In this document: positions 19,424-59,178 of the stretch, in pieces
Layout of the letters: every line of letters starts with the position of its first letter
Position numbering within the stretch: the first letter of the stretch is position 1
Source of the DNA: Heterostelium album PN500
Lineage: Eukaryota > Evosea > Eumycetozoa > Acytosteliales > Acytosteliaceae
Length of the DNA stretch: 64,000 nucleotides
Direction: 5' to 3'
NCBI RefSeq assembly: GCF_000004825.1
Contig: NW_008805071.1
Span: 868,001 to 932,000, forward strand
Notes under the pieces: generated by a model
The model's database searches: none
Seen by the model: the letters and a program-made list of their open reading frames with translations, nothing else
Told to the model about the DNA's origin: nothing
Made by a program: the position numbers and the translations under genes

Positions 19424-19454
<31 letters not shown>

Positions 19455-22400: not shown

Positions 22401-24224
22401 CAACTAAATTGATCAAATCAACCAGTTTTACTCTGGAGAATCAGAATTCTTCGTCGCCTCAAAGTACAGACCGTAACATTTCACCTATCATCCTCGAACC
22501 AACACCAACTCAATCGCCAATCGATATTACATTCCAGCAACGAAGTTATTCATCATCACAATCACAGCAACAATCATCGTTTAAACCGATATCTCCTTTG
22601 TCGACTGGACTCATTCCCAAGGAAGGACCAATTAAAAATAACAATGCATCAACGACCAACAATCCAAGCTCATCTTCAAACACTGATAAGTTTTCAACGA
22701 AACAATCAAATACTGGCAGTTCTTCAAATATGCCTCCTACGACCATGATTCAGAAACCATTTAAACCAAGTGCTAAAATAGTACCAACCATACCGCTGAC
22801 ATCAAACTTGAATCAATTCTCACAACAATCACTGGTACAAGTCAAACAGCAGTATAGGAATGTACCATTGCAATTGGCCAACCCAATTCCGACTACCTCT
22901 AGTGGCACAACTCCCATACAGATCCAACAGACTGGAGCAATGCAACACCATCCAAAGTCGAGTCTGCCTGTCAATACTTTACCAACACCATCATCTATTT
23001 CACATACAAGTCATATGGCTCAGTATCACTTGAGGAACAAGTATCATACTATTCCCTATTCACCAACCTCGTCCTCGCCGGTCGACCCATCAGAGTACTC
23101 ACGTGCTGCCGCCGGCAGTGGTGTCGGTGGTGTTCCAACACTTCAGAAATCAAATTCATCGTCGACTCTACCGTCTATCACTCCTTCCAGTCTGACAAAT
23201 ATTCCCAATCTATTTGACGATCACCCAACCTCACACGATTCCTTTAGAAATCGATCGCTCAACTACGATACAACCAATGTACTTTCACTGGTCGGAGGCA
23301 TATCGCCGCCACATTCACCATCGCCTCCACCTCTGACAGAGAATACAATCGATCCATCGATACTTGACCCATCCGTAGTATTCTATCATCTTCACCAATT
23401 CTCTGGCGATCTGACAACCGAGATTAAACCTGGTCATTCATTTGATCGTGCTCTCAGTGTTTTGGATCACACTTTTTGTTCAGAGACTTACAAGATTGGA
23501 ATCATCTATATTGGTGCTGGACAGAAAACCGAAGAAGAATTCCTCTCCAATACCAAAGGATCACCAAGATATCACCAGTTTCTGTCTGGTATTGGTGAGA
23601 AAGTCCGTATTGCTGATCGTGTCGATGTGTATCCTGGTGGACTCGATCGCAACGGTAAATCCGACGGAGAGTTTACAATTCACTGGCGTGACAGAATCTC
23701 TCAAATCGTTTTCCATGTAACTACAATGATGCCAAACATTGAGAATGACAAAACCTTTACCAACAAGAAACGTCATATAGGAAATGACTATGTAAATATT
23801 ATCTTTTCAGATTCGCCAACGGAATTCAATCAACAATGTATCTCTGGACAATTCAACTTTGTCAATATCATAATATATCCATTGGATATTGGTTGGTATA
23901 GAGTTGAGATTAAGAAAAAGAAAGAAATACCAATCTTTGGTCCAATACATAACTATCAAATGGTTTCTGAACAATCATTACCATTCTTGGTTGTTCAAAC
24001 TGCAATTTATGCAAATGTTTGTAAAAAAAAAAAAAAAAATTATTAATATAGTTTTAAAACTAACAATTTTTATTTATCTATAGTTAATATCAATGCAATT
24101 CGATGGAAAATTTGAGTTTATTTCCAACTTGGAGGAAAGATTAAAACAAATCAAAACGATCAAGGATAGATTTGCTAAAGAAGATGATGGATGGATTGAT
24201 CTTGTATCTCTTAAACAAAGATAA
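16802..24224 (+). CDS. tsc2: Tuberin (TSC2), Rheb GTPase-activating protein
   Basis: Four exons (16802-19720, 19809-20081, 20162-24016, 24084-24224) give about 2,395 residues. The C-terminal Rap/Ran-GAP domain (about 2130-2330) is closest to tuberin: IGIIYIGAGQKTEEEFL, YHQFLSGIG, YPGGLDRNGKSDGEFTIHW, FHVTTMMPN, then KKRHIGNDYVNIIFSDS with the catalytic asparagine thumb at about residue 2272, GQFNFVNIIIYPLD and SLPFLVVQTAIYANLIS. The last exon adds a helical tail (EERLKQIKTIKDRF) as in human tuberin. The N-terminal half is alpha-helical HEAT-like. Large low-complexity inserts of Thr, Gly/Ser, Gln and Asn lie between domains, longest at about 20770-23100. With TSC1, tuberin turns off Rheb and thereby TORC1. 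Confidence 0.92.
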
Positions 24225-24790: not shown

Positions 24791-24864
24791 TATCAAGAAT
24801 GGGAATCGAACCCATGACCCAAACCGTGTTAAGGTTTTGTGATAACCAACTACACCATCCTGAC
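24791..24864 (-). tRNA. tRNA-Val (anticodon AAC)
   Basis: Reads on the minus strand and folds into a full cloverleaf. The acceptor stem is GTCAGGA/TCTTGAT (two G-U pairs, discriminator A). The D arm is GTG...CAC with AGTTGGTTA in the loop. The anticodon stem is AAACC/GGTTT with loop TTAACAC, so anticodon AAC. The variable loop has five bases, and the T arm is ATGGG/CCCAT around TTCGATT. Box A and box B are intact. The CCA end is not encoded, as expected for a nuclear gene. A TTTT run lies just past the 3' end. The ORF track proteins over this interval are not real. Confidence 0.95.
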
Positions 24865-32430: not shown

Positions 32431-34244
32431 ATGGCAACTGAAATATTACAAACAGGTTTACAACTTGCCAGATCGGCGGTGGAAGCCGATCAGAATAAAA
32501 ACTATACGTTGGCATCGACATTGTATGAACAGGCTATTCTCAATTTGAAGTTGGCCATCATCAGTGAGAAAGACCCAGCAAAGACAGCGTTGATCTCATC
32601 AAAGGTCGAGGAGTACACACAACGTAACAAGTTCATTAAGAGTATGGCTCCGCAAATGCCTGCTGCTCAACCAACTGCCGCACCACAATCAAACAACTTG
32701 GCGTTCAATTTCCCATCGATACCATCCTCTGTTTCACCCGCTGTTGCCAATACACCAGCAAACACAATCCACTCATTTCCACAACTACCTCAAACACAAC
32801 CACAACCAACATTCTCACAACAACCATCATTCCCACAATTACAACAACCATCATTCCAACAACAACAACAGCAACAATCACAAGCCAATATATCAAGATT
32901 ATCATCTTTACATTCTGGAGATCAATTTACACAGAAATCAAATATGGGTAGAGTAGAATGTAAGTGAAATAATAATAATAATTGGATATTGTTGAAAATT
33001 ATGTTTGATCATTAATATTTCTATATTTTAAAGCATATGAAATAGCTACAAATTTAGCAATGAAAGGTAGAAAGGAAGAGGAATCTAGAGATTATAAAAA
33101 GGCAAGTGAGTACTACCAACAAGCTTGTTCATACTTTTTGATTGCTATCAAATCTGAACCAGACTCTATCATTAAAAAGAGTATTAGTGATGAAGCAAAG
33201 ATCTATTTAGATCGTGTAGAAACTTTGAAACCATATATACAACAACAAGCACAACAACAGCAACAACCAATATTTACAAATACAACAACAACTGTTAGTA
33301 GTACAAGTATATTAGGTAATTTCCCAACTGTAGGTGGTGGTGGTGGTATGAATAATAGTAATTCAGCTCTAAGTCAATTCCCATCCGTCGGTAGCATGAA
33401 CAATATGAATATAATCAACAATAATAACAATAACGGGCTGAATGGAAGTGGTGGATTCCCAAGAGTAGGTAGCTCAGGTAGTATAGGAAGTAATGGATCC
33501 GGTGGATATGGATCGCCAATAGGAAATGGCACTGGAATGTTGATGTCGCCAACCTCGACAGTTCCATCGACATTCACTGGTGGCGATCGTTGTGCTGCCT
33601 GTGGTGCCACTCTCTCTACCAACAGCATCAAAGCACTCGAGCGTTCATGGCATCCCGAGTGCTTCTCTGTGACCATCATTTGTGCCGGTTGTCAAAAGCC
33701 ATTCTCACTGGTCAATCTCTCATTGAAGGTCAAAGACAACCGTGCCTATCATCCACATTGTTTCGAGTCCACCACCGGTCTCTACCAAGAGGAACGACGA
33801 ACATTCGTTGGCAAGTCCAAGGCACTGTTCTTCTCGATCCAATTACAGAGAAAGTTCTATCGTGCCGGTGAAACTGTACAATTTGCATTTATCATTGACA
33901 ATCCAACTTCAAAGAAAGTCGACAAGGTCGTTGCCTACATGCTCATGACCGAGACGCGAATGGAGATTGTTGGAACTGCCTATGAGAGACGTTCTCGAAA
34001 GACCGTTGCTAAGCTTGGTCGTTGCGAGTTCTTCCAATCCACGAAATTCCCACTCTCCAAAGACCGATTCGAAGGTGACTTTTTCTTTTCGATTCCACCC
34101 AATGTATTACCATCGGAAGTAGCTGGTGTCGATGCCAGCTTCGTTCGTGAGTATCAGTTAGTAGTTAAATGTGTAGGATCAGTTCTCAAAGTAATGAAAG
34201 TTAAACTTAGATTCAATTTAAATATATTAGAATCAAAGAAATAA
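32431..34244 (+). CDS. MIT-LIM-arrestin domain adaptor (Adc family)
   Basis: Two exons (32431-32959, 33034-34244) encode 579 residues. Residues 1-75 are a three-helix MIT-like domain (LARSAVEADQNKNYTLASTLY). A Gln/Pro linker follows, then a second MIT-like unit (ATNLAMKGRKEEESRDYKKA, starting at about 180) and an Asn/Gly/Ser linker. A LIM domain spans about 363-420 (CAACG...HPECF, CAGC...HPHCF, zinc ligands complete). The C-terminal arrestin-like beta-sandwich follows (ALFFSIQLQRKFYRAGETVQ). MIT domains bind ESCRT-III tails and arrestin-related proteins select membrane cargo, so the likely role is endosomal sorting. D. discoideum has arrestin-domain (Adc) proteins with accessory domains; I cannot say which member this is. 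Confidence 0.82.
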
Positions 34245-35131
34245 GAAAAGATAAGATAAATTAAGATAGGATATAAAACCAAAAAGATATTTTATTAAAA
34301 TAAATAACATGTAACTTAATATTATATTTTTTTTTGGTTTTTTTTTTTTTTTTTTTACATTTTTTATCAGATATCAATGGGCTCGTCTAGTTGATTGTCT
34401 ATCATTGTATCTTTGTTTTAACTCAGTAAGTGTTCGTTTCAAAAAGATGGTTTACTTTTGCTTAATTATTTATTGTTTAATTAATCAATAGACTGGTCAA
34501 GTGATTATCTATCATAATATCTTTGTTTGACTGAGTTGATTTCAAAAAAATTATTCTTCTTTTAAATTTTTAAAAAAATTATAAAATTAAAAAAAAATTA
34601 GAAATCATTATTCGATAAATTTGATATCAATAGACTTGTGTGATTATCTATTATTATATCTTTCCTTATAAGGTGTTGATTCAAAAAAGATATTTCTTGT
34701 TTTTTGTAAATAAATAAAAATAAAAAAAATAATAAAAATTAAAAAAAAATTAAAAAAAAACACACTCCAAAACTATGATCATTTTCACTAACACCAAAAA
34801 AAAAATGGTCGTTTTCAACAATGAAAATACATTCAATCAATAATCATATACACACCTTATTATAATGATAAAAACATCTTTTTATAAAATGTACATCTAC
34901 TTATATATATTAGTTATACAAATCAACATCAATGAGAAATTTGTTTAAATTATTATTAAATTCAAAATGAGTGTTATCGTCGTTGAATCAACCAAATTTG
35001 TTAACTTACCATCAAAATTATCTTTAATTTTAGTTTGGTAGATAGATTTATCTATGAACTAATTATTATAATAATTATAAATTAACTCCAACTGACTATC
35101 TTATTTATTAAAATATTTATATATATATGTT
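34245..35131. other. Intergenic with three diverged direct repeats
   Basis: The repeats lie at about 34370-34450, 34483-34558 and 34623-34699. Each begins ATCAATRGRCT and passes through GTGATTATCTATCA, ATATCTTTG and TTGATTTCAAAAA-like sequence, with AT-rich filler between them. No ORF. To the right is the promoter of the giant gene; an 8-codon upstream ATG frame overlaps the start at 35127. Confidence 0.6.
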
Positions 35132-38100
35132 ATGTTATTATATTCAATAAATTTTAATAATAATATAAAGTTAAACAAAATTGTTTTATTTTTATTGTTT
35201 GTTTTGTTATTTAATTTTAGTAATAACAACAATAGCATTAGAAATGTAGTTTCTTCACAATCCGTTGAAATCTCGTCATCAAATGACATTAACAATAATA
35301 ATAGTTCATATAAAATAAATAATGATAATAATAATAATAATAATATTATTGTTATTGATAATTTAAATATTTCATCAAATTATTCATCTTTCGATATAAC
35401 TTTATCACCATTACCATCATTGTCATCATCAAATTCACTAGCATTAAACCACTCAGATTCCGACTCTGACTCATTTTTTTCTGAAGATGAGAATAGTGAA
35501 GATAGTGAATTAATTACAATACTAAAAGAAAATGTCAAAGGAATTCAATCGGTAGATTGTGAGTCCATAACTTCCAGAACTTCTTGTGATTTGTTTGCTC
35601 CGATGTGTAGCTATATTACTTTCACCAGTTGCTGTGGTGAACTTCGTGGCTATTGTGTAAGTATGGAGCGCGATGATCTCTGTCGGAATGAGATGTCCTG
35701 TGGTTTGGACACCGTCACAAACGACACCATTGAGTTATGGACTACTTGCTATCCAAAAACAATCAGACAGTTGGAACAACCGAATATCAGTTGTGAACAC
35801 TGTCCCAATGGCTGTGAGTATATCGATCCACCTGGTGGACCGTCATGTACTCGTTCTCCTTGCTGCCCGAAGATTCCACGTTGTCTGCTATCGAGTGAGC
35901 ACAAAGTTCAACAACTGACACTTACCACTTGTAATGATTTCCAGTGTTTCAATGGATTGCATTGCCAGATGTTAAATGGTGTTCCAACATGTGTGCCGTC
36001 GTCTTGTAGCAACTTTCAGTGTCTGGGTGCATTCCACTGTGTTATGATAGGTCAAAGTCCAACTTGTGTTCCAAATCAAGCATATAATCCACCACCTCCA
36101 CAACAACAACAACATTACAATAATCAACCTACACAATTAACATGCCAACTTCTTCATTGTTTAATGAACTTTCAATGTGTAATGTTAAATGGAGTACCTA
36201 CTTGTGTTCCACAATATCAACAGCAACAATATCAACAACCACAATATCAGCAACCACAATATCAGCAACCACAATATCAGCAACAACAATATCAGCAACC
36301 ACAATATCAGCAACCACAATATCAACAACCACAATATCAGCAACCTACTCAAGTAAATTGTCAAACTTTACATTGTTTAAATAACTATCAGTGTATAATG
36401 ATAAATGGTGTACCTACTTGTGTTCCACAACAGCAACCGCAACAACAACCACAATACATTCCAAATTTTGTTATAACACCACAACCCCGACCACCTGTTA
36501 CTTATCCACCACCTATTTATATTCCACCGCAGTCAACACCAATTCCTACACAATATGCACCATCAACACCATATCCTACTCCCCCGGAAGCTACACATCC
36601 ACCTCAGTTGGTAAACGGTCGTTTTAATTTCGACTTACTAAAGGCATGCGACAAGGTTTGTCCAACAAACTTTTTTTGTAGGGAGATTATGGGTTTTCCA
36701 ACGTGTATTGCTATTGGAAATAATATTCATTTACAGTCGATATCTACATGTCAGAACTCACTATGTCCAACTGATATACCGACTATCTGTCTCAACTATA
36801 GTCTTCCAACATGTGTTCCCATCAATGAGCCTTTTCCACCAGTCGCACCAATTGGACTCAAATGTGGTTCAGGATATTGTCATCCATCTGACCGATGTTA
36901 TAATTGGCCTAGTTACTCTGGATGTGTTCCAAGAACAAGTAAGTCCAAATGAATCAATACATTAAAATCAATGTTTATTAATATGTTTTTAAATTGATAG
37001 TGAACTGTGAAGAATATCAATACCCAGAGTGCCAGCAGAATTCACCCGTATGTCAATGGACCTACATGAAAGATTGTTGTGGAAAAACTAAATTCTATTG
37101 TGCCAACAACATGGCATCAAGTGGCGGTTGTAGTTCGGAATACTATTGTGCAACTATGCCAAACAATCAGACCTACAAGGTAATCACCAATTGTAAGCCA
37201 TTGGAAGCACACGTATTCAGAGTACCTTATAGTATGTATATTTAATATATACAAATAGTTACAATTTGATATTAACTAAAATGATAAACAGAGAAATGTG
37301 AAGAAAATACATGTCCACCTGGTTACGCTTGTTCATTACAAAAAGGAGAGAGCGATTGTATTGATACCTGTTGTCCATTGGTACCTAGGTGCATTGAGCT
37401 GCCAAAACCAACACCTTATATTCCACCAATAATAATGATACCACCAATTCCCAAGACATTACCACCTTTCACTTTTGTACCACGAAGTACACCAGCACCT
37501 ACACCCTCTGAAATATATCATACAGTACCACAGGTAATACCTCCTTTACCACCGTTGCCACACAGAACTCAACCTCCAACTCATCCACCAGCACCACCAA
37601 CACCACCACCAACACCACCACCAACACCACCACCAACACCACCACCAACACCACCACCAACACCACCACCAACACCACCACCAACACCACCACCAACACC
37701 ACCACCAACACCACCACCAACACCACCACCTACACATCCACCAACTCTACCACCAACTCCGCCACCAACTCCGCCACCAACTTCGCCACCAACTTCGCCA
37801 CCAACTCCGCCACCAACTCCGCCACCAACTCCGCCACCAACTCCGCCACCAACTCCGCCACCAACTCCGCCACCAACTCCGCCACCAACTCAAGCACCTA
37901 CTCCTCCACCAACACAACCACCGACACCTACACCTACTCAAACACCAACACCAACATTTCATGTTCAAAGACCGCCTATGTCTCCAAATCCAACTGTATT
38001 TTCGGAGCCATCTGATAATAATGTTGTCAATCTTGAAGGTATTTCTATTTTTGACCATCAACCAGCAGCGGTTTCTGCTTCACATTCCAAACCGCCTAGC

Positions 38101-41100
38101 CAAAGTGAAATGCCTATTGTTATGACAACAGGTTTAATTCAAAATATTGGTGATAATCCAACTACAAAAGAACCATATAATGTAGCTCAGATCTCAACAG
38201 TTAATTTGACAGTAGCACCATCCTTATCAGGTAGTGGTTCCCCCGAGGTTATTCATGATGATACTACTTCAAATCAACAACAGACATCAAGTTTACAATC
38301 ATCTTCTCCCCTTCATGCTCCCCAACCAAAGAATCCATATAATAATAATGGCCAAATCAATCAAATTTATCCTACAGCAACACCTGACTCTACCATAGCA
38401 ACTTCCCCAAAGACAACGAGTTCTCCAATTTTCTCACCAAATACCAACGAAAATGGAAATTTACAACCAATAACTTCAATTGGTTCCAACACAGATACAC
38501 ATTTACCAAACATCAAGTCAAATCAAACATCAACACCAAAAAGGCCGGAAACTTTGACTAATCAATCACCTACTGTCATTACACAACAGCCTGATACTGC
38601 TATTAATATCTCCAATCAATCAAATAGCGCATCACCATTAAATCAATCACCAACATCGAGTAATAATAATCTCACAAGACCATTTACCAGTCCAGATTTT
38701 ACTACCTCAACACAAGAAACAATACATGCACCAGAAGACACATCAGAACCAACACCTCATACACCAATTCGTTCAATTCCAGTTAATTCTCCTCCACCAA
38801 GTGAAGTTCAAATCCATGTTGGTTCGGAGCAAATCCTCACATCTAATGTATACATCATTCCAACCTTTACACCCAAACCAGCCAATAATGATTCATCAGA
38901 GTTTGGAATTTTTGACTTTGACTTTGAAAACATCTTTCATACAAAACAAAATGAAACATCATCAAGCCCTATATCACCACCTGCTGCTACAACTGGTCAT
39001 CTTACCGAACCACCTATTCCTCCAAATAAGCATTTTCCTCGAACCAGTGATGTTCAACAATCTAATAGTCCAATAGATTACAATTCAATAACAACTTCTA
39101 CACCTTTCACAATTGGAGGTAAAGTCATCTTTTAATTAAATAAGTACATATGTTACAGTCTACTAATTACTTTTATGCTATTTTTAAATTTAGATGTAGT
39201 TACAGAGAATCAACCTAGATTACCAAGATTAACAACTTTATCAGAAACATTAACTGCAACTACAGCAACAAATGGAATAACTACTACATTTATAGATTTA
39301 ACATCTTCTATTTTATCAACTTCAACAGCAATAGCTACAAATGGATATCCTAAAGAACCATTATCTTCACAAACTTCAAGTTTTAAACCAACATCACATT
39401 CAATTTCAACGTACATGACTGCTGCAAGTACAACAACAACAGAAATTTATACAAATCATCAAGATGAATCACTATCAAAGGTTCCTCAAAGTCCAAAATC
39501 AACTACAGGTACAACATATGCATTGTCTGAAACATTAAAATCTACATCAACAATATTTCCAGCAATTCAATCATCTACTTATACATCATCCATTCCTAAT
39601 CAATCAAATACTCCAAGATTCTCTCCAATTCCACCACCTTTTACATCTGTCGTTACAACCTCTGATTCTTTTACAACAGCAACCATAGGTTCAAGTCAAA
39701 CGCCAAATCCATCAATATCATATAATCCAGATGAAACACTTTCTTCTGTTCCAAAGCAACCAAAAGTACCATTAACTATCTCAAACTTAGTATCAACAGT
39801 GTCAACTACAGTTTTACCTGCATCTTCAGATATTGCGTCCATCTCCACCACAGCATATCAAACAACAAATATACCAAAGTTTTCCACTGATATTATCACA
39901 AGTTTACCAAATCCAAAAGCAACTGATACATTAACTACAAGTTCAAGTACAGCACTCCCCAATACAAATAATCCAGATGAATCTCTTTCCTTTGTTCCAC
40001 AGATACCAAAAGTACCATCAACTTCAACAACAACTCCTAATAATCGTTTGACTACTGGTACAACTTTTGTACAAACTAATCCTACAACAAGCAATATCTA
40101 TCAAAGTGAAACACAATCTCAGGCACCAAAACAACCAAATGGATCTTTGCCACCAAACATAGTTGATGGAATAGCAAAAACATCAATACCGAGTACTCTC
40201 TCAACTTTATCTGTTTCATACAATCTAGATGAAACACTTTCATATGTTCCTCAACAACCAAAGGTTCCATCAACACTTTCCAGTCCTGTTAAACCAACCA
40301 CCACAATTTCAACTACTGTTTTACCATCTTCAGATCAAACTGCTGTTGCAACGACAATGACAACAAGTTTAACAACAGGTCCACAAACACCATCACCTTC
40401 AATCCAAACACCACCAAAAACACCACCACAACCAACAAATTCAATTTCATCTTCTTCACCGTCATCATTGTCTTATAATCCAGATGAATCACTTTCCTAT
40501 GCTCCACAACCAAAATTACCCTCAACACTCTCCAGTCACGTGAATCCAACTACAACCATGTCAACCACATTATTACCAACAACATCATCTCAAACATCGA
40601 CAACAATATCTTCTGCCAATGGTTTTATGACAACCGTACAAACACCATCTCCAAATTCATTACCACCACAACATCAAACAACAAACGCACCATCATCAAT
40701 ATCCACAACATTAACATCATCGTCGGTTTCTTACAATCCAGATGAAACACTTTCATTTACTCCTCAACAACCAAAAGTACCATCAACACTTTCCAGTTCT
40801 GTCAAACCAACCACCACAATGTCAACAACTATTTTACCATTACCGTCAGATCAAACTGCTGTTGCAACAACAATGACAGCAGGTTTAACAACAGGCCCAC
40901 AAACACCATCACCTTCAATTCAAACATCACCAGAAACACCACAACCAACAAATTCAATTTCATCGACTTCATCATTGTCTTATAATCCAGATGAAACCCT
41001 TTCCTATGCTCCACAACAACCAAAATTCCATCAACACTTTCCAGTCCTGTGAATCCGACTACGACCATATCAACAACATTTTTACCAACAACTTCAGCAC

Positions 41101-44100
41101 AAACATCGACAACAATCTCTTCTGCCAATGGTTTTATGACAACCGTACAAACACCATCTCCAAATTCATCACTACCCCACCAACAACCAACAAACGCACC
41201 ATCATCAATATCCACATCTTCAACATCATCGTCGGTTTCATACAATCAAGATGAAACACTTTCATTTATTCCACCACAGCCAAAGGTTCCATCGACACTT
41301 TCCAGTCCTGTTAAACCAACCACCACAATGTCAACAACATTATTCCCTATTTCTTCAGACCAAACTTCAACAACTATATCAACTTCTTTAACAAGTTTAA
41401 CAACAGTTCTCCAAACACCATCACCTTCAATTCAAACATCACCAGAAACACCCCAGTCAACAAATTCAATATCAACTACAACATCATCGTCATCCTCACA
41501 ATATCATCAAGATGAAACAAATTCATCTGGTTCACAACAACCAAAATCACCATCAACTCTCTCAAGTCCCGTGAATCCAACTACAACCATGTCAACCACT
41601 TTATTACCAACAATTCCAGCTCAAACAATAAATAACATAGCATCTACCAATGGTTTTATGACAACTGTACAAACACCATCTCCGAGTTCATTACCACCAC
41701 AACATCAAACAACAAATACACCATCATCAATATCCACAACATTAACATCATCAGTTTCATACAATCCAGATGAAACACTTTCATATGCGCCACAACAACC
41801 TAAAGTACCATCAACACTTTCCAACTCTGTCAGACGAACCACCACAATGTCAACTACTGTTTTACCATTACCGTCAGATCAAACTGCTGTTGCAACAACA
41901 ATGTCATCAAGTTTAACAACAGGTCCACAAACACCATCACCTTCAATCCAAACACCACCAAAAACAACACAACCAACAAATTCAATTTCAACTTCCTCAC
42001 TACCATCAGTATCAGATGAAACCCTTTCCTATGCTCCACAACAACCAAAATTACCATCAACCACTTTATTACCAACAACATCAGCTAAAATATCAACGAC
42101 AATATCTTCTGCCAATGGTTTTATGACAACCGTACAAACACCATCTCCAAATTCATTACCACCACAACAACAACCATCATCAATATCCACATCTTCAACA
42201 TCATCGTCGGTTTCTTACAATCCAGATGAAACACTTTCATTTATTCCACAACAACCAAAAGTACCATCAACACTTTCCAGTCCTGTTAAACCAACCACCA
42301 CAATTTCAACTACTGTTTTACCATCTTCAGATCAAACTGCTGTTGCAACGACAATGTCATCAAGTTTAACAACAGGTCCACAAACACCATCACCTTCAAT
42401 TCAAACACCACCAAAAACACCACAACCAATAAATTCAATTTCATCTTCTTCACCGTCATCAGTTTCCTATAATCCAGATGAAACCCTTTCATACTCTCCA
42501 CAACCAAAATTACCATTAACAATCTCTAATCCCGTGAATCCAACTACAACCATGTCAACCACTCTATTGCCAACAACATCGGCTCAAATAACAACTACAA
42601 TATCTTCTGCCAATGGTTTTATGACAACCGTACAAACACCATCTCCAAATTCATTACCACCGCAACAACAAACAACAAACCCACCATCATCAATATCCAC
42701 ATCTTCAACATCATCGTCGGTTTCATACAATCCAGATGAAACACTTTCATTTGTTCCTCAACCAAAAGTACCATCAACACTTTCCAGTTCTGTCAAACCA
42801 ACCACCACAATGTCAACAACATTATTCCCTATTTCTTCAGACCAAACTTCAACTACAACCATGTCAACCACATTATTACCAACAACATCATCTCAAACAT
42901 CGACAACAATATCTTCTGCCAATGGTTTTATGACAACTGTAACACCATCTCCAAATTCATTACCACCACAACATCAAACAACAAACGCACTGTCAACAAT
43001 ATCCACATCTTCAGCATCATCAGTTTCATACAATCCAGATGAAACACTTTCATTTGTTCCTCAACCTAAAGTACCATCAACACTTTCCAACTCTGTCAAA
43101 CCAACCACCACAATGTCAACAACTATTTTACCATTACCGTCAGATCAAACTGCTGTTGCAACGACAATGACAACAAGTTTAACAACAGGTCCACAAACAC
43201 CATCACCTTCAATTCAAACACCACCAAAAACACCACAACCAACAAATTCAATTTCAACTTCATCATCACCATCAGTATCAGATGAAATACTTTCATATAC
43301 ACCACAACCAAAATTACCATCAACTCTCTCTAATCCCGTGAATCCAACTATGACCATGTCAACCACTTTATTACCAACAACTCCAGCACAAACATCGACA
43401 ACAATCTCTTCTGCCAATGGTTTTATGACAACCGTACAAACACCATCTCCAAACTTATTACCACCACAACAACAACCATCATCAATATCCACATCTTCAA
43501 CATCATCGTCGGTTTCATACAATCCAGATGAAACACTTTCATTTGTTCCTCAACCAAAAGTACCATCAACACTTTCCAGTCCTGTCGAACCAACAACGGT
43601 AAAATCAACTACGTTGTTACCTACTCTCTCATACCAGACAGCTATTGCAACAACAATATCAACTTCTTTAACAAGTTTAACAACAGTTCTCCAAACACCA
43701 TCACCTTCAATTCAAACATCACCAGAAACACCCCAGTCAACAAATTCAATATCAACTACAACATCATCGTCATCCTCACAATATCATCAAGATGAAACAA
43801 ATTCATCTGGTTCACAACAACCAAAATCACCATCAACTCTCTCAAGTCCCGTGAATCCAACTACAACCATGTCAACCACTTTATTACCAACAACATCGAT
43901 TCCAACAATAACTAGTATTGATAGCACAGGTTTTATGACAACTGTACAAACACCATCTCCGAGTTCATTACCACCACAACATCAAACAACAAATACACCA
44001 TCATCTATATCCACAACTCTAACATCATCGTCTGTTTCTTACAATCCAGATGAATCATTGTCATTTGCTCCGCAACAACCAAAAGTACCATCAACACTTT

Positions 44101-47100
44101 CCAGTTCTGTCAAACCTACCACTACAATGTCAGTAACTACATTATTACCAACAATTTCATATCAAACTACATCGGATATGCATTCAACACTTTCGTCCTC
44201 ACAACAACCAAGGTTACCATCTATCATCATTACAACTTTATCAAACGGTCAAACTTCTACTACAACAGATGAATTGTCTATTATATCAACAAGTTCGCCA
44301 ACCAACCAACTTACAACTACATCAGGATATCCCCAAACATTAAATTCACAAACAACAGTTATTGGATCATCGCCAACTCCTTCAAACATTCAACAAGATG
44401 CCTTAGCTACACACATAACTTACACAAACAACTTAACTTCATCTTTAGCTAACAATCCAACATCTATAAATGGAATTTCAACAACCTCAAAACAACCTTC
44501 ATCGACATCACCTAATCCAACACCAATTTCATACAATCCAGATGAATCATTATCATTTGTTCCACAACAACCAAAAATACCATCACTCGCAACCACAGAT
44601 TCGAGCTTATCGACAGGTACAGGTACCACACCAAAACCGTCAATTGAAACAACTCGTTCGTCAAACGACCAACCTACCACAAATCCGAGCAGAACAACAC
44701 ATACACCGTCAGAACTTGCAACCACACAAAAGCCAGTTACTTCCTACCTCCAATCTACTACTCTTGATACAGGTATTTATCAAAGTATACTTTTACATTT
44801 CAAAAACTAATATACATCTTTATCACAATCATCTACAAAATCAGGAACTACTTCACCATTAATGAACGCCCAAACACAAGGAATATCAACAATCAATGGA
44901 TTTTCATCAACCTCAAAACAACCTGACTCACCCTATTCATCTCATTCCCAATCACCAACAACCACAACCACAACAAACACAAATACAAATCAAACACCTA
45001 TTCCAACACCAATATCATATAATCCAGATGAATCACTATCATTTGTTCCTCAACAACCAAAATCTCCATCACCTGTGATAACATTAACCCCAGTAACCGA
45101 AGTAGCAACAAACCAACTAACAACCACAACCTTAACAAATTCAGCAACAATACCAATTTCTACTTTAACCAATCAAAATATAAATTATCCACCCACCACA
45201 TCATTAACTATAATATCTTTACCCAATGATGGTAATTCTACTCTGAGCAATCCCACAAATATATCATTTTCGTCAAATGGCGTAAATCCAGCAACTAACA
45301 AACCAACAACAACAAATGGAACGACATCCTCAACAAAAAACAACCCATCGATTCCCATCTTCTCAATAACTACAACAACAGGTACCAGTCAAACACCAAT
45401 TTCATACAATCCAGATGAATCATTATCGTTTGTTCCACAACAACCAAAAGTACCATCTCTTGTAACCAACCCGTCTACATCAACGGAATTGGGACAACAA
45501 TCAACAACAACTTCTGGTATTCCTCAAAGTTATCTAACAGGAAGTAATACACATGAAATGACAACTTCACCAAATACATTTGGAACAACACAAACAACAA
45601 CAACCACGAATTTAGCACCAATATCGTCAACACAAACAACTACAGGCACAACCACAGTAGCACAAGCACAGCCAACAACAATATCATCTACTCCCTCTCA
45701 AACAACTAGAAGCACATATGTAGCTTCAATAACAAATGGAGTGAATACAACTTCTCCAAATGTTGGTCAAGATACCACATCTAATGAACAACCAAAGTTA
45801 ACTTTTGGAACAACCAATTCTCCAATGCCAATTGCAACAACGGGATCGCCAACTACTCATATAACAACATCACCATCATCATCAGCAACACCTTCAAATA
45901 ATCAACCAGAGTCAACAACCACAACAATTTATTCGGCAACCAACAAACCTTCATCTACAATAAATGTATCTGGAACAACCAATCCAACATCTATAAATGG
46001 AATTTCAACAACAATTTCACAACAATCTTCATCGACTTTACCTAATTCAACACCAATTTCAAACAATCCGGATGAATCATTATCATTTGTTCCACAACAA
46101 CCAAAGGTACCATCACCTGCAACAACAATATCTTCAACAACACAAACACCAACAAACCAACCAATACCTACAACCACAACAAACTCAGCAGCAATTCCAA
46201 TTACTTCAAACAAACCAACAACATCATCTGCATCCACATACTCAGGTATATCAACAGGTAATGGTATCACACCAACACCAAGTTCAAACGGACCAACCAC
46301 CCAATCAACAACATCACCAAATTCACAAACTACACTTTCATCAATAACATCAACAAATGGAATGACATCTCAAACAATTAACAACACAAACACTTCAACC
46401 AATCCTGATCAACCAAAAGTGTCTTCATATACAACAACCAATGCTCCTACTTCATTGAATACATCAATAAATCAAATGATAACAACATCACCACAAAGTT
46501 CGAATTCACTAAATTCAAATTTTGCGAAAGGAACTGCTCAGCCAACAATAGATAATCCATCAAACTATCCTTCTTCTTCAACAATAGGTACCAGTCAAAC
46601 ACCTATATCATTGAATCCAGATGAATCATTATCATTTGTTCCACAACAACCAAAAGTACCATCACCTATAACCACTCCATCCTCTACAACAGAATTGGGA
46701 CAACAATCAACAACAACTTCTGGTATTCCTCAAAGTTATTTAACAGGAAGTAATACACATGATAAGACAACTTCGCCAACTTTACCAAATACATTTGGAA
46801 CAACACAAACAACAACAACCACGAATTTAGAACAAATATCGTCCACTCAAACAACCAAAAGCACAACCACATTAACTCAAACACAACCAATAAATGTAGC
46901 CTCCAACACTCTATCTACATCATCTCCAACAAATGGAATTAGAACAACATCTCCAAATTTTGGACAAGTTACTACATTTGCAACTCAACAACCACAATCA
47001 ACAAATCCAACAACCAATGCTCCATCTTCAAGTTCTTTGGATATTCCACCAACAACAATGCAAGAATTTTCAACAACCTCGTCACCAAAATCGACTCAGT

Positions 47101-49899
47101 CATCAAATCCACCAATTTCAAATATTCCAAACGAAACTCTTTCGATTGTTCCACAACAACCTATACCATCCAATTCGACAACCAATTCTCCAATTTCCTT
47201 GACAACTTCACCATCAAAAACACCCTCAATTAACCAACAAGATTCAATTGCTTCGACAACCAACAAACCTTCATCTACATTAAATCCATCTTCAATAAAT
47301 GGAATTTCAACGACAACATCAAAACAAACATCATCCACATCACCACCCAAATCTATTTCAACACCAATATCATACAATCCAGATGAATCATTATCATTTG
47401 TTCCACAACAACCAAAGGTACCATCACCTGCAACAACAATATCTTCAACAACACAAATACCAACAAACCAACCAATAACTACAACTACAACAAACTCAGC
47501 AGCAAATCCAAACACTTCAAACAAACCAACAACTTCACCTAATTCAAACCCTGGTTTACCTCAAAGTTATCTAACAGGAAGTAATACACATGAAATGACA
47601 ACTTCACCAAATACACAAGCACAATCTACACATTCATCATTGCCAATACAAACAACCACAAGCACAACCACATTAACTCAAACAAAACCTCCAAATATAT
47701 CCAATGCACCAACAACAGGTTCTGTTCTACCATTGAACTCTTCACAAATATCTCCTCCAACAACAACCAGTGAACATACAAGCAACCAAATTTCAAGTCA
47801 AACAACAAACCCGAATGTATCTCCAATGACCAATACAACAACTCCAGTTGGACAAGATACCACATCCACATCTACTCCACAACCAAAATCATCAAATGAA
47901 GTAACCAACTCTCCTACTGTTATAGCAACAACAAGATCACCAACAAATCAAATTACGACAACAGAATATGTTACTCCACAAACAACAAATACAGAACCAA
48001 AAGGTACAATGATAGGAACAACTAAATCTTCAACAAACAACCTAACAACATCACCATCATCATCATCAACTGCTCCTTCAAATAACCAACAAGATTCGAC
48101 AACCAACAAACCTTCATCTACAATAAATGCATCTGGAACAAACAATCCAACATCTATAAATGGAATTTCCACAACAACTTCAACGACATCACCTAATTCA
48201 ACACCAATATCACACAATCCAGATGAATCATTATCATTTGTTCCACAACAACCTAAAATACCATCACCTGCATCAACATTGGGAACGACTTCACAAAGCA
48301 GTCCACCAATTCAGTCTATGCAAAGTACCACATCAATGATGAACACACAAGGATTGTCAACCATCAATGGACTATCATCAACTTCAAAACAACCATACTT
48401 ATCCATCATATCTCCTACAACAACCACAACCGCAACAGCATTATCAATTTCGGGCAAACCTAATGAATCATTATCATATTCATCAATCAATGGAATTCCT
48501 CAGACACCCTCCCTTTCTTCAGAAACCACTTCACCTCATACAACTTCGACTTCTCCAAATCCAATAGGTAACTAAACAATTATTAAAGTTGTTGCATAAT
48601 TCAATATGTTAACATTATTTTTTTTTAATATTCACGAACAAATCAATCAGATCAGTCATCACTTTATGGATTTTCAACTATGTTAATATCCGCAACATCA
48701 AGTACCACATCATCAATACAACAAACTCTTTCACAGACACCAATAACAACAGTAAATCCACAACAACCAAAAGTAGACAATCTTGTAACAACAATCTCTA
48801 CAACCACTAGTTCACAAACTTCTGCAATATATTCTACAACTTTGTTACAATCCTCAACAACTTTTATATACCAAACAGAAAAACCTTTACCTCCATATGT
48901 TCCAGCAACCACAGGTATTTCCACTTCACCAGTATCCTACAACCCAGATGAAACACTTTCATTTGTTCTCGAACAACCCAAAGTACAATCTTCTTCAAAA
49001 TCAAGTACAGTTTCATATAATACAATAGTAAAATCAACTTCAACTACAAATCCAGCTACTCCCATCCCTTTAACGACAGGAATATCTACACAATCAAATT
49101 CAGTAGGTCCTTTACCAACAATGAGTACAAACCAACAATCATTATCATCACTACATTCAACAGTCACATCTACAACAATCATCTCAGTACTTCCTTCTAC
49201 TCTATCTACAAGTTTAGGATTAAATACTATTAATCAACTTGTTGGTACAACAGCTTTACAATCAAATACCCAATCACAACCATCAACACCAACAAACAAT
49301 GTATCTCCTGCATTTTCAACTCCAACACCAAGAGATCCAACCTTAGCTTCAACAATTTATTTAATACCATCACACACCATATCACATCCTACAAATCCTA
49401 CTCATACACCATTATCAACAACACCATTACCATCCTCTGGCTCAAGGGTAAGTGCGGAGAACACATCACCTGCATACTATAGTCCAATACAAATAACACC
49501 ATCACAACCACCTCACGATGTCAATTCACAGCAACCTCTGTCGTTCAATCCAGACGAATCTCTAGGATTCGCTCTCAATAAACCAAAGGTTTCATCTAAA
49601 CCAAATTCTCCAATAGATCAAGGGTTAGTCCATCCAATAACCAATAGATCATACAACCCACCCCAGTATATTGGCCAAATTTTACCAGAACCCAAAGACA
49701 AATACTCTAAACCTCCTTTTACCCAATCAGGTATGTGTTTCGTTTTTAAATTTTATTTTAATGTAAAACTAATTTTAAGAATCTAGATTTAGATAAAAAT
49801 GATTAAAAGCCAATTATTTAATAAATCATTATGATTTCCTTGCTGCTCTTTTATTATTTAGGTTGTATCCAAATGGTATTCATCAATAAAGTTTTATAA
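35132..49899 (+). CDS. Giant secreted spore-coat/mucin-like protein (about 4,760 aa)
   Basis: Seven exons: 35132-36938, 37001-37231, 37292-39118, 39194-44772, 44845-48567, 48651-49730, 49862-49899. Their total (14,285 bases) is one short of a multiple of three; one missing base near 41027 restores a single frame. A signal peptide (KIVLFLLFVLLFNFS) opens the protein. Residues about 140-210 are a Dictyostelium spore-coat N-terminal cysteine domain, followed by follistatin-like CNDFQCFNGLHCQMLNGVPTCV units (several), a QYQQP array, a second spore-coat cysteine domain (exon 2), a CPPGYACSLQKG unit, a PTPPPT array, then about 3,500 Ser/Thr/Pro residues with a recurring NPDE(T/S)LSFVPQQPK motif. 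It is probably a heavily O-glycosylated extracellular coat or matrix component. Confidence 0.8.
36211..36350 (+). repeat. QYQQP coding minisatellite
   Basis: A run of near-identical 15-base units coding QQPQY, between follistatin-like cysteine repeats of the giant gene. Units vary only at third positions and at CAG/CAA. Confidence 0.85.
37590..37890 (+). repeat. PTPPPT coding minisatellite, two subtypes
   Basis: About a dozen perfect CCACCAACACCA units (to about 37730), a short irregular join with CATCCA, then about ten CCACCAACTCCG units. The protein repeat is the same PPTP throughout, but codon choice differs by block, so each block expanded separately. Confidence 0.9.
39700..49600 (+). 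repeat. About thirty degenerate NPDE(T/S)LSFVPQQPK repeats
   Basis: Inside exons 4-6 of the giant gene. The conserved core (SYNPDETLSFVPQQPKVPST) recurs every 100-160 residues or less, with Thr/Ser/Pro-rich filler such as TTTMSTT and ISSANGFMTTVQTPSP. DNA similarity is highest from about 40200 to 44100, where longer multi-motif blocks repeat almost exactly, pointing to recent expansion; outer copies are more diverged. Confidence 0.9.
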
Positions 49900-50300
49900 T
49901 CTTTTAACAAGCACATTAAAAAATAATTACAGAATTTAATAATCAATTTGAAATAAACAAATAACAATATATACCAAACGATAGTTTATCTTTTGATGAA
50001 ACCTATTTTATCATTTATTTGCTTCTAAAATGTTTTTAAAAAATAATATCTATCAAGTCATCGATAGGTGTGATCACCATTTTTATAGTCAAATTGATTA
50101 GACACCTCCAATTGAGTTGTTCTAAAAATTAATGAATTAATCAAAGATTAGACCAATTGATGTTGGTTGATTGGTTGAATGAGTGAATAGGTGTGTTGAT
50201 ATGGTTTTAAATAATGAATGATTAAGAATATAAAATCATCGATCCTCTTTTGTCTTTAACTATAGTTAGTAGTTAAAATATTTATACAAAACAATTTACC
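49900..50300. other. Intergenic, nothing recognised
   Basis: AT-rich spacer after the giant gene. No gene or RNA is seen. Confidence 0.45.
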
Positions 50301-50309
50301 AAATAATTA

Positions 50310-51426
50310 CTGAGGTGTTCAATGCATTGAGCTTTGGAAGTAGATAGTGGAGGAATTGCATCACTTTCAGGGTTCTACAATGATTTAATCGATTAATTGT
50401 CGCTAAACTGTCATCTCTGGACCAGAAAAAGATGCTATTCGTTCCGACAACAGATCCTATATGTTCTTCAGCACATTAAGTTAAGAAAAGCAAAAGAGAG
50501 TCAAAGAATTCAATTTCCTTTTTATACCACTTTATTTAAAGTTTATTTCAGATTGTTTTATCGATCATTATCGTATATGCTACCCATTGTTATACAACTT
50601 GTCCACATCACGTTGCGTAGCAAAACTAATTGAACAGAAAAAGTATTCATCCTTTTTCTCGTACAGTGTTGTTTAATGAATACGTCAACATTAGATGGTA
50701 ACGTAAGATACTGTCACTACCCTTTTGATGTCTACACTCAATTTTAAAGGTCTTGATAGTGGAAATATTGTAATTGCTGTTGTCAGCAGATACAACTACT
50801 TGTGTACCAATTTGTTTGATTTCGATCTCAAAGCAACTGAATTCACTACGACATACAATGTCAAAAATCAATGTGTCGCCGGTAGAAATGGATCAGTTGT
50901 ACTTTCCAGTTTCTATGGAACTAAAGCTGCCGATGCCATCTATACTTTGAATGGAGTTCAAGTTAGTAATTCATTGTCTCTCGGTGTAGGAAACTATTCA
51001 ATCGTTTCAGACGTTGCCTCTGGAACATGTAAATTCGCTCTCCAAACATTATTGACTGTTGAAAGTAATATTATCAATTCAACAATCAACTCACCATCAT
51101 GTGGAACCATCAACATCGTTTCAACAGCATCACTTAATTATTAGTTTAACTCTTTAATTATTATATTCATCAATAACTCTGTGATCACCACCTTGAAGAA
51201 TACCAATAGATACACATTCAACAATCTTAATGGTGCCGATTATTTGATCAGAATCACTGAAATCTCTGGATGTCAATCAACCACACCTGTCACTGTAAAT
51301 GGTTGTCAAGTTCCAACCACAACAACCGCAACATCATCAACTACCTCTGACCCTATCAATAACTCAAATAGAGTGATTCCATCACTTTTGCTTTTTATTA
51401 TTGTTTTGCTCGTTTTATTAAATTAA
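50310..51426 (+). pseudogene. Broken gene for a surface protein with Ig-like/SprB-like repeats
   Basis: The best-preserved part is 50725-51426, all in one frame, interrupted by a single TAG at 51142. It carries three cysteine-delimited beta units (CVAGRNGSVVLSSFYGTKAA ... LNGVQVSN ... GVGNYSIVSDVASGTC, then CGTINIVS..., then GADYLIRITEISGC), a Thr-rich stalk (VPTTTTATSSTTSD) and a hydrophobic C-terminus (VIPSLLLFIIVLLVLLN), typical of membrane- or GPI-anchored dictyostelid surface proteins. Upstream pieces around 50330-50480 also read as coding-like but in other frames, and no signal peptide is found. The stop could be a sequencing error, but the fragmented 5' part favours a pseudogene. Confidence 0.6.
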
Positions 51427-55737: not shown

Positions 55738-58700
55738 TTAACCACTGACGTAGTTGGCTGGTACCCAACCCTTCTTTCCTCTGAGTTCACCTTCCCACCA
55801 TCCACCATTATCCTTTTGGATGATGACAATTTGGTCACCCTCTTTGAATGAAAGTTCGTCTTGACTGGCGGCATCATAGTCGTACAAAGCTTTGACAGTT
55901 GGTCTCTGTGGAGCAGCTGGCTTTGGTTGTGGTGGACGCATTTGACCTCCACCGGCTGGTGCACCACCTCCCATTGGTGCTCCTCTTCCTCCACCACCTA
56001 CAGGTGCTCCTCTACCAGCACCCATTGGTGCTCCTCTACCTCCACCTTGTGGCATTCCACCACCCATTTGTGGAGCTGGCATTTGTCTTGGTGCCTGTTG
56101 TTGCATTCCACCTCCTTGTGGAACTGGCATTTGTCTTGGTGCCTGTTGTTGTTGTTGTTGTGGCATTCCACCTCCATTTTGTTGTGGCATTCCACCTCTT
56201 CCACGTCCGGCTTGTGGTGGACGTACTTGAGCTTGGGCCATTGAATTTGGATTGTAGTTCTTTGGTGTGGAGTCTGTGGAACTTGGAAGTCCGGTGGCAA
56301 CACCAACAGCTGGACCCTTTCCACCCTTCTTGAGAATAGGAATTGGTTGAGCTTGCTCGTTCTTGGCAAAAGTCATTGTACGTTGCTCTCCCTTCTTCAA
56401 TGTGTAATTGATATTGTCAGAGAAATTGATATTCAAAGCGGAACCAGTGAGAATCTTGTAGTTTTCAATGATATTGATGAGCAACTCGGTCTTCTTGTCG
56501 TTCTCAATGACTTGGTCAAACTCTGGCAATCCCAAAACAATGTAGTTATCGGCCAATGTAGAGACGGAAATCGATCTAATGTCTCTAATTTGAATTCTAC
56601 GAAGCAATGTAAATGTTTCGATCTTCTTTTTGATGGTTTTCTCGACAAAGTAGATGGCTTGCTCCGACACGACTAGAGTCAATGGCTTGGTCTTGGCACG
56701 ACGGTCAACCTTTACGACGTGGTCGGCGAAAATAATACGCTCCTTCTTGTGTGCGTTTTCCATTGCCTCTTGAATTGGGAATTGATTATCGAAATCAATG
56801 TAATCCATAGTGAATTTACGATCGATAGAGTTACGTTGACGCTCCTTCTTGTTCTTAAAGATATCTGCGATTTGGGCACGTTGCTCCAATGAGTGCTTCT
56901 TGGCCTTCCAGTTTCTAAAGGCTTTTTGGATCTTCATGATGCACTCGGTGTCCTTACGATCGAGAGATTCTTCCAAGTGGAAAACAGTCTCTGGGTGACG
57001 AATGAAAATTTTGGTTTGACCCATTTGCCATTGGCTTGGATCAAGACCGAGGTCTTGACAGATGGTTCTGGCACCCTCTTTTGGATCACCTTTCCACTCA
57101 CCCCAAAGTCCCCAGGTCTTGGGAGAGAGTTTCTTGTAACGACGCAAGAAACGCTCGAATGGTGCACGGTATGCGAAACCGGCACGACGTACACGAACAT
57201 TTTCTAAAAGACCCAAATATTGGACTTGATGACGTACACGACTACCTTCCCAGTCTTTGGCTTTCTTTGTTTCGTTTGGCTTGATACAACGGATGTAATG
57301 TGGAGTACACTGGGAGAGAGCCTTCATAAGGTCGGCAGCAGAGTTCTTAATCTTGAAACCAGCGGTTGTTGGACGCTTCTTTTGGAGTGACGAAGTGGTG
57401 TCGTCGTTGAACAACTGTGTGAGAAAAGTCATTTTACTGGTCTGGACGGCTTCGATCAGATCACTGAACAAAGTATCCTTATTCTTATCGGAGAAACCTT
57501 CGGCTTCGTAAGTCACCTCACCGGCATAGTGCTTCACAGCAAATGCACCGGTCATAGCACGCCAGTGAAGATGTCCATCAAAGACACCGGCCATCTTTTC
57601 CAAGAACTTCTGGTCAGTTCCACTCGACTGTGCATGTATAGTATAACAAATATCGTCGAGCAATGAGAAGATACCTGGTGGCGCTTTACCCTCGATCAAA
57701 TCACACACGATTTGATTGTTGAAATATTTAATTGGCTCCCATTTGATACCTTCACGGACATACTCTTCTTGTTCGGCCTTCAATGTCAGTTCAATAAAGT
57801 ATTGTTGGAGTTTCTCATTTACAAAGTTGATACAGAATTGTTCGAATCCATTCTTTTCGAAAATTTCAAATCCGAAAATATCAAGAATACCAATGACATT
57901 CTTGAACGGTGTTTGGTAGTAGGAAAGAGCTATGTTGACACGCTCAACCAACCAGGTGAACATACGGTCATAGATTGTACGTGCCAGAGCATCACGAGCA
58001 CCGTTTGCTTGCTCTACGTTTTGTGGCACATTATAGGTGGAACGACGATTACCAGATCCACCACCAGCACCACCGGTATTGATGACACGGAAGAGAATGG
58101 CATTCTGGAGAGTGGCCGAATCAATACACAACATACTGGCAGCCAAATCCAAGGCGTTGGGATCGTAGATGGCGGCATTTCCCTTGTCGTCCTCGATGAA
58201 ATAGATATTTCCAATATGTAGAACACATGCCACAATACGCATCAAGATGCTTTGCTCCTCGTCAGACAAACCAATGACTTTCATGGCGTCACGAACTTCA
58301 CGGTAGTCGGCAGCATCATCTACACCATCTACTGTATAACACTCTGATTGGTTGAGATAGTAGAATGAATCTGGAGTGGACAGTACAAAGTCACGCTTCT
58401 CCTGTGCGGAGGCACCGGCCAACAATTGGTAGAAAATATGGAAATTACGCTCTCCTGGATTCTGGAATACGACTCTTGACTTTTCCAGCAGGTAATTATA
58501 AATCTTACCACCGACTGGATCACCGGCCTTATCGAATTGAATTTCAAAATACTTTCCGAAACGCGACGAGTTGTTGTTACGCAGTGTCTTGGCATTACCG
58601 AATGCCTCTAGCAATGGATTCGATCCGAGAATAACGTGTTTGACATACTCTACCTTCTCAGTTCCACCAGATACCTTGGAAATATAGTTCATAATCATTT

Positions 58701-59178
58701 TGGCTGCCTCTGTCTTACCGGCACCAGACTCACCAGAGATAATTACACATTGATTCTCCTGGTCGTTCTTCATTGCACGATAGGAGGACTCTGCCAACTG
58801 ATAAATATGTGGTGGGACTTCCTGTGCATGTTTACCTCTATAAGCTTCGACATAATCATCACCTGTATTATTCAAATTTCTAAATGGATTTACTGAAATC
58901 AATACAGGTCCAATATTTGTCTATAATAAAATAAATAAAAAATATTTTTATTATTAATATTTTATGTTAATTGAACTGATTATTACAACAACTTACATAA
59001 ATGAAATCATTCATATAACGCTTCTTTAAATTTTCAACGATCTCCTCTTCAGAGATCTTTGGAAGCATAACAAGATCATCTGTACCTTGCTTGGCTTGTA
59101 CTTTTTTAGACTAAAAAATAAAGATAGTTAATTAACTGTTGATCAATTTGAAACGGTTGTTGTTAAATTACATACCAT
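55738..59178 (-). CDS. myoB: Long-tailed class I myosin, myosin IB
   Basis: Three exons on the minus strand: 59178-59176 (just the ATG), 59110-58997 and 58920-55738, giving 1,099 residues. The motor starts [17 protein letters not shown]. The P-loop is GESGAGKT at 102-109 and switch I is NNNSSRFGK. Relay and lever regions follow, then an IQ-type segment ([20 protein letters not shown]). The TEDS-rule residue is Ser333 (RRST, 16 residues before DALAR), so PAK/STE20-type kinase control is expected. The TH1 lipid-binding domain, a Gly/Pro/Gln-rich TH2 actin-binding tail and a C-terminal SH3 domain ([15 protein letters not shown] ... GWVPANYV) complete the protein. Myosin IB links membrane to actin at pseudopods and phagocytic cups. 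MyoD is the main alternative. Confidence 0.93.

Follow-up and report, generated by a model that had tools for sequence, protein, structure and literature searches.

The spore wall has been described as cellulose held between two protein layers (PMC4210663), and the spore-coat proteins of dictyostelids are characterized, in the published account of the family, by mucin-like repeats, proline repeats and C-X4-C-X5-C-X6-10-C motifs (PMC3068167). O-fucose is reported on mucin-like coat domains (PMC11853108), and enzymes of mucin-type O-glycosylation are reported to occur in dictyostelids (PMC3188802). The 64,000-nucleotide stretch of Heterostelium album PN500 analyzed here (the window; C10:868001-932000 in a searched genome of 32.9 Mb and 39 contigs) contains, on the + strand from 35,132 to about 49.8 kb, a predicted gene of seven exons and six short AT-rich GT..AG introns. 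The sequence points to one gene, whose product is probably a giant mucin, secreted and modular, that belongs to the spore-coat (Dicty_spore_N / C4C) family of dictyostelids. Despite its unusual size, the giant belongs to a known family and is not a new kind of protein.

Gene model and N-terminal modules

The predicted exons and introns are as follows.

35132..36938, + strand: exon 1, 1807 bp; hydrophobic N-terminal stretch (probable signal), Asn-rich stretch, first Dicty_spore_N domain, C4C (follistatin-like) modules and PQYQQ array
36939..37000, + strand: intron 1, 62 bp, phase 1, immediately 5' of the second domain
37001..37231, + strand: exon 2, 231 bp; first part of the second Dicty_spore_N domain
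37232..37291, + strand: intron 2, 60 bp, phase 1, within the second domain
37292..39118, + strand: exon 3, 1827 bp; remainder of the second domain, PPT array and an anchor-free Ser/Thr/Pro-rich stretch
39119..39193, + strand: intron 3, 75 bp (a multiple of three) with an internal stop; GTA..TTTAG, 80% AT, phase 1
39194..44772, + strand: exon 4, 5579 bp; long repeat array with 15 strict anchors and a one-base frameshift
44773..44844, + strand: intron 4, 72 bp (a multiple of three) with an internal stop
44845..48567, + strand: exon 5, 3723 bp; Ser/Thr-rich, 6 strict anchors
48568..48650, + strand: intron 5, 83 bp
48651..49730, + strand: exon 6, 1080 bp; Ser/Thr-rich, 2 strict anchors
49731..49861, + strand: intron 6, 131 bp, doubtful
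49862..49899, + strand: exon 7, 38 bp including the stop, doubtful

All six predicted introns combine a GTA donor with an AG acceptor, span 60-131 bp and are 78-83% AT, and each falls in phase 1 once a single one-base frameshift in exon 4, at about 41,026-41,028, is counted. The summed exon length of 14,285 bp is 2 mod 3, one base short of being divisible by three. The open frames were also compared with 200 dinucleotide shuffles per exon for exons 1, 3, 4, 5 and 6. The longest frames in these exons (602, 608, 1259, 1240 and 359 residues, respectively) all exceed the corresponding shuffle maxima (162, 338, 325, 279 and 181 residues). Residue counts were taken with an exon 5/6 border a few bases away in the same frame and may be off by one.

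The N-terminal part of the product carries the following modules.

35555..35884 (C10:903555-903884), + strand: first Dicty_spore_N domain (PF04562), expectation value (E) 1.8e-14, 54.8 bits, profile 1-113 of 115
35930..36421, + strand: four C4C modules of the form C-X4-C-X5-C-X8-C, with the PQYQQ array between the third and fourth
36,209-36,345, + strand: PQYQQ array, exon 1
36863..36925, + strand: fifth C4C module, residue 578, directly before intron 1
37,592-37,953, + strand: PPT array, exon 3

Exon 2 alone matches PF04562 (E 8.7e-13, 49.4 bits, profile 1-69), while exon 2 spliced to exon 3 reaches 63.4 bits over profile 1-114. The second Dicty_spore_N domain is therefore interrupted by intron 2 and whole only in the spliced form, which supports that join. 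Both domains exceed the curated cut-off of 22.3 bits. Between them lie five C4C (follistatin-like) modules, all in exon 1, and a sixth match to the C4C pattern falls within the second Dicty_spore_N domain. Ranked by hydropathy alone, the top six 17-mers of the spliced model begin at residues 11-17.

A profile search of the genome returned nine Dicty_spore_N matches, which group into six genes. The five paralogues of the giant are listed below.

C9 paralogue (L025), C9:871434-873242 and onward: domain, C4C modules, domain, TTGPP mucin; main open frame of 1,058 residues
C13 paralogue (L028): domain, C4C modules, domain, short Thr stretch, further Cys modules
C25 paralogue (L027): one domain, then PTDKPTE-type repeats
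C9b paralogue (L029): one domain and Cys-rich modules
C12 paralogue (L030): one domain with a predicted intron inside, then PTTGS mucin

All nine domains were aligned. The C12 intron, which like all paralogue introns is a prediction, lies in the same part of the domain as giant intron 2, and it is in phase 1 in every stop-free candidate. In the best C12 candidate (GTAAGA..TATAG, 71 bp) the split codon is the third ahead of a conserved Cys; in giant intron 2 it is the second. Several paralogues have predicted introns directly before the first domain; giant intron 1 precedes the second domain. This pre-domain intron is in phase 1 in all three stop-free candidates in C25, and the C13 and C12 sequences can be read by eye as containing a phase 1 intron before the domain.

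The 3' end of the gene is less clear. If intron 6 is read through, the frame stops at 49,786, and AATAAA occurs at 49,820 and 49,885; a C-terminal anchor is conceivable should intron 6 stay unspliced. Overall, the model is least secure where exon 3 joins exon 4 and at the final mini-exon, intron 3 being the least supported internal join. Downstream, positions 50740-51425 of the window look like a truncated gene copy and mark the 3' limit of the giant gene. This piece shares 96% protein identity with C17:512593-512991 and 83% with a neighboring C17 copy, the latter aligned over 133 of 134 residues; it has an in-frame stop at 51,142-51,144, and reading past this stop ends in a hydrophobic tail. 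Extension of the giant into the frames at 50.7-51.4 kb was rejected on account of that 96% identity to part of a C17 gene, and between the two lies a stretch of ~840 bp in which every one of the three frames has 15 to 27 stops.

Mucin tail and anchor motif

The product of ~4,760 residues contains 900 Thr, 816 Ser, 672 Pro and 61 Cys. The region after the second domain comprises about 4,043 residues, of which 39.8% are Ser or Thr and 595 are Pro. Cys is absent from this tail before the frameshift and occurs twice in the frame used after it, once in nine residues where that frame was read upstream of the break and once in the doubtful exon 7. The tail is a long, Ser/Thr/Pro-rich, Cys-poor region of the kind by which mucins are recognized.

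The tail is punctuated by a 20-residue motif, here called the anchor (SYNPDE[ST]LSFVPQQPKVPS), which is present in 23 strict copies (15, 6 and 2 in exons 4, 5 and 6) that read approximately [VIL]-S-Y-N-P-D-E-[ST]-L-S-F-V-P-Q-Q-P-K-[VIL]-P-S. The strict pattern fixes D-E-[ST]-L, restricts the next two positions and leaves what follows free. At positions free of the pattern, S is found in 22/23 copies, Y in 18/23 and the fifth-position P in 21/23. Furthermore, Pro-Lys follows the core in 23/23, and 22/23 carry a Gln at residues 13-16. A looser pattern finds 29 copies, with Pro-Lys in 27/29; it gains worn copies and loses the last strict one, and by a loose count there are about 30 anchors in all. 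The anchor matched nowhere in the genome outside the giant gene, which ties exons 4, 5 and 6, all carrying it, to one another. All seven matches of a 101-residue repeat query at E <= 0.001 fall in the giant gene, in a genome search that skipped simple repeats and scored the best candidates alone (n=16).

Across 13 anchor codons, the proportion of synonymous differences (pS) is 0.369 and that of nonsynonymous differences (pN) is 0.139 (pN/pS 0.38), and for the six codons outside the pattern pS is 0.393 and pN 0.200 (pN/pS 0.51). The two shifted frames give about equal values (pN 0.18 / pS 0.16 and pN 0.18 / pS 0.18). These ratios are descriptive only, with no formal test, as the copies are related by duplication. 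After the frameshift, the linkers contain 21.0% Ser and 24.6% Thr, and the anchors 14.1% Ser and 2.5% Thr. The anchors are richer than the linkers in Asp, Glu, Lys, Tyr and Phe, partly because the pattern demands D, E and K.

The frameshift was examined through 20 alignments to sister repeats, of which 14 were inspected; setting aside the self alignment and one that does not cover the site left 12. A one-base gap at 41,026-41,028 appears in ten of these 12, and the other two are different. An extra intron spanning the frameshift was rejected, as the stretch aligns straight through to the sister repeats. Gap lengths across the repeat alignments (416/664 multiples of three) are uninformative, as overlapping low-complexity alignments count the same gaps repeatedly.

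The structural claims of the preliminary description are borne out in part by these results: open frames joined by consensus introns in compatible phases, an exon total one base off a multiple of three with one frameshift, two spore-coat cysteine domains (here by profile search, with exon 1 and exon 2 both matching PF04562), follistatin-like repeats (five C4C modules by pattern) and two proline arrays. In contrast, its figure of about 3,500 Ser/Thr residues has to be replaced by a count of 1,716, and it makes no mention of the anchor. That the whole constitutes one 14.8-kb gene stands as the best reading, given the near-counterpart introns in paralogues and the anchor shared by exons 4-6, with the last exon as its weak part.

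Proposed role and alternative readings

If the giant is made as modeled, the putative signal sequence would direct it into the secretory pathway, where the Ser/Thr tracts may become O-glycosylated and hold the tail out like a stiff, water-rich brush. The Cys-rich N-terminal modules could tether the protein to other coat proteins or to cellulose. It is the layout of the wall, the O-fucose on coat mucins and the dictyostelid O-glycosylation enzymes that suggest such a tethered brush. The anchors are probably little glycosylated because they are poor in Thr, and we infer that they might form bare peptide sites, spaced along the brush, at which partners could bind or cross-links could form. The outer spore-coat layer is the likeliest single place for the protein, with the cyst wall or the stalk/slime matrix as alternatives.

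Several observations weigh against a single intact coat-mucin gene. The frame is broken by the one-base frameshift, which may reflect either genuine damage or a misassembled repeat. The longest AT-rich run within the gene, its 5' end apart, lies around intron 3 (39,056-39,388), and exon 3 is without the anchor motif. An unspliced intron 6 would yield a protein ending in a short F/V/I/L-rich hydrophobic stretch. The constancy of the anchors stems in part from choosing copies by pattern. Pfam FOLN gave no match in three exon 1 stretches at E up to 10; consequently, the FOLN name for the C4C modules is based on the pattern and on resemblance to the paralogues. An AlphaFold2 model of the first domain, built from a single sequence of 119 residues, was uninformative, with a mean predicted local distance difference test score of 39.5. 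Among the paralogues, the C12 intron lies one codon farther from the following Cys than giant intron 2, and two of four stop-free candidates for the C9 pre-domain intron are in phase 0, the other two being in phase 1 and likelier by position. Finally, CA-rich elements in the 800 bp upstream of the giant and the C9, C25, C13 and C12 paralogues (the set examined, to which C9b does not belong) are sparse (2, 1, 1, 0 and 0, respectively), with no sharing.

The features around intron 3 could reflect two adjacent genes, namely a coat protein of ~1,290 residues with its stop at 39,133-39,135 and a separate anchor-repeat mucin beginning at the ATG at 39,175. Unspliced exon 3 does meet a stop, the next frame opens with a hydrophobic stretch, the AT-rich run is the longest within the gene, and the anchors occur only 3' of this point. 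However, stop and ATG are separated by only 39 bp, compared with AT-rich runs of 1,318 bp (34,143-35,460) and 673 bp (49,677-50,349) flanking the gene, the hydrophobic stretch sits inside the T-rich predicted intron, and the 75-bp GTA..TTTAG intron fits with the rest in phase and AT content, making a split into two genes rather improbable. Decay of the gene, with a real frameshift and a downstream array that is no longer made, seems more improbable still: the exon 4 break, with its one-base gap in most sister alignments, and the truncated copy of another gene directly downstream are in keeping with it, but the 14.3 kb of exon contain this single break, some 8.5 kb 3' of it are still open, and anchors taken from the two sides show fewer replacement than synonymous changes. 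Moreover, the break is located in a repeat beside an A run, where assemblies presumably often err.

Readings that retain one intact gene differ in where and how the protein would act. It is quite possible, if on balance doubtful, that the giant is not a spore-coat protein but a mucin of the matrix, slime sheath, stalk or cyst wall, a reading that departs from a coat mucin in place only. A 2024 study states that stalk or cyst-wall roles cannot be excluded for some family members (PMC11574339), and Polysphondylium is described as making walls of cellulose in its spores, its stalk and its cysts (PMC4210663); on the other hand, the characterized proteins named with these domains are coat proteins (PMC11574339, PMC4931340). 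It is unlikely that the anchors, with Gln beside a near-invariant Pro-Lys, are themselves the working part of a giant multivalent staple that, bound or cross-linked at intervals, welds neighboring spores or coat layers into a sheet. A literature search on transglutaminase in the Dictyostelium spore coat returned nothing on topic, as judged by title. The earlier designation of the product as a spore-coat protein holds for family membership, which follows from the domains, "spore coat" being the name of the family rather than a demonstrated location.

A secreted giant mucin of this family illustrates the reach of one coat-protein plan, in which the same N-terminal module set is combined with a tail of ~4,000 residues bearing a private motif. 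If the gene is expressed, the organism would offer a tractable amoeba for asking what a dormant cell wall gains from a giant mucin, and the natural array of motif copies would be useful for finding the partner of the anchor.

Elsewhere in the window, two long frames at 16802-24046 with tuberin (DUF3384, Tuberin) and Rap_GAP domains are likely to be one TSC2 gene, and a tRNA-Val gene is located at 24791-24864 (- strand). A myosin with motor, TH1 and SH3 domains, as in class I, is found at 55738-58920 (- strand), and further tandem repeats, mucin-like in look, occur at the window end (63265-63995).

Relation to paralogues and known systems

The names of the Dictyostelium spore-coat proteins suggest apparent masses of tens of kDa, and these proteins are not known to contain a 4,000-residue anchor array. 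As in the giant, mucin-like and proline repeats are described for SP75, SP85, SP70, SP96 and others (PMC11574339, PMC3068167). Published family counts (PMC4931340, Glockner and others) give three proteins with Spore_N alone and three with Spore_N and FOLN in Polysphondylium pallidum, and 9 and 8 for D. discoideum and D. lacteum. The six genes found here equal the P. pallidum number, so the giant gene has probably already been counted as a family member. No named description of it was recognized in a literature search of papers exclusive of their supplements, and a search combining SP85 and mucin found nothing meeting all terms.

The avian eggshell protein CREMP (chicken, PDB 9pgb) carries the same C-X4-C-X5-C-X8-C module as the giant (E 1.5e-9); unlike the giant, CREMP is described as runs of C4C modules. 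The CREMP-type likeness of SP75 has already been published (PMC3068167). A frame of 760 residues at C38:64937-67216 (+ strand; L035) consists mostly of C4C-type modules in a CREMP-like plan, with no Pfam match at E 0.001 over the 747 residues scanned.

Like the predicted giant, colossins are extracellular proteins of dictyostelids and very large; one of them, colossin A, is described as a structural component of the slug that is built from hundreds of Cna_B repeats (PMC3188802), and the colossin family is listed among those expanded in group 2 (PMC4334915). Colossins differ from the giant in being built of Cna_B/SdrD folded repeats rather than mucin, and seven stretches of the giant gene (exon 7 excluded) gave no Pfam match to repeats of this type at E up to 1. 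A colossin-like gene at C4:1416003-1425761 (- strand; L033) combines C4C-like modules with SdrD_B (E 2.8e-93), its open frame being 3,689 residues by the search result and 3,253 residues in the stretch fetched; unlike the giant, it is not among the Dicty_spore_N matches of the genome. Because of this gene, giant extracellular proteins are not new in this genome.

The preliminary description knew of no spore-coat family member of this size. The size is indeed unusual among the six Dicty_spore_N genes here, none of the other five having a frame of the giant's size in the stretches fetched from this genome, while the C4 gene represents a giant of another kind that also has C4C-like modules. The closest counterpart is the C9 paralogue, which has the same order of domain, C4C modules, domain and mucin. 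It differs in being about a quarter of the size, in its TTGPP units, in having the second domain in one open frame, and in the absence of the anchor from the translation inspected. Judged by predicted architecture, the giant is an enlarged version of the C9 plan.

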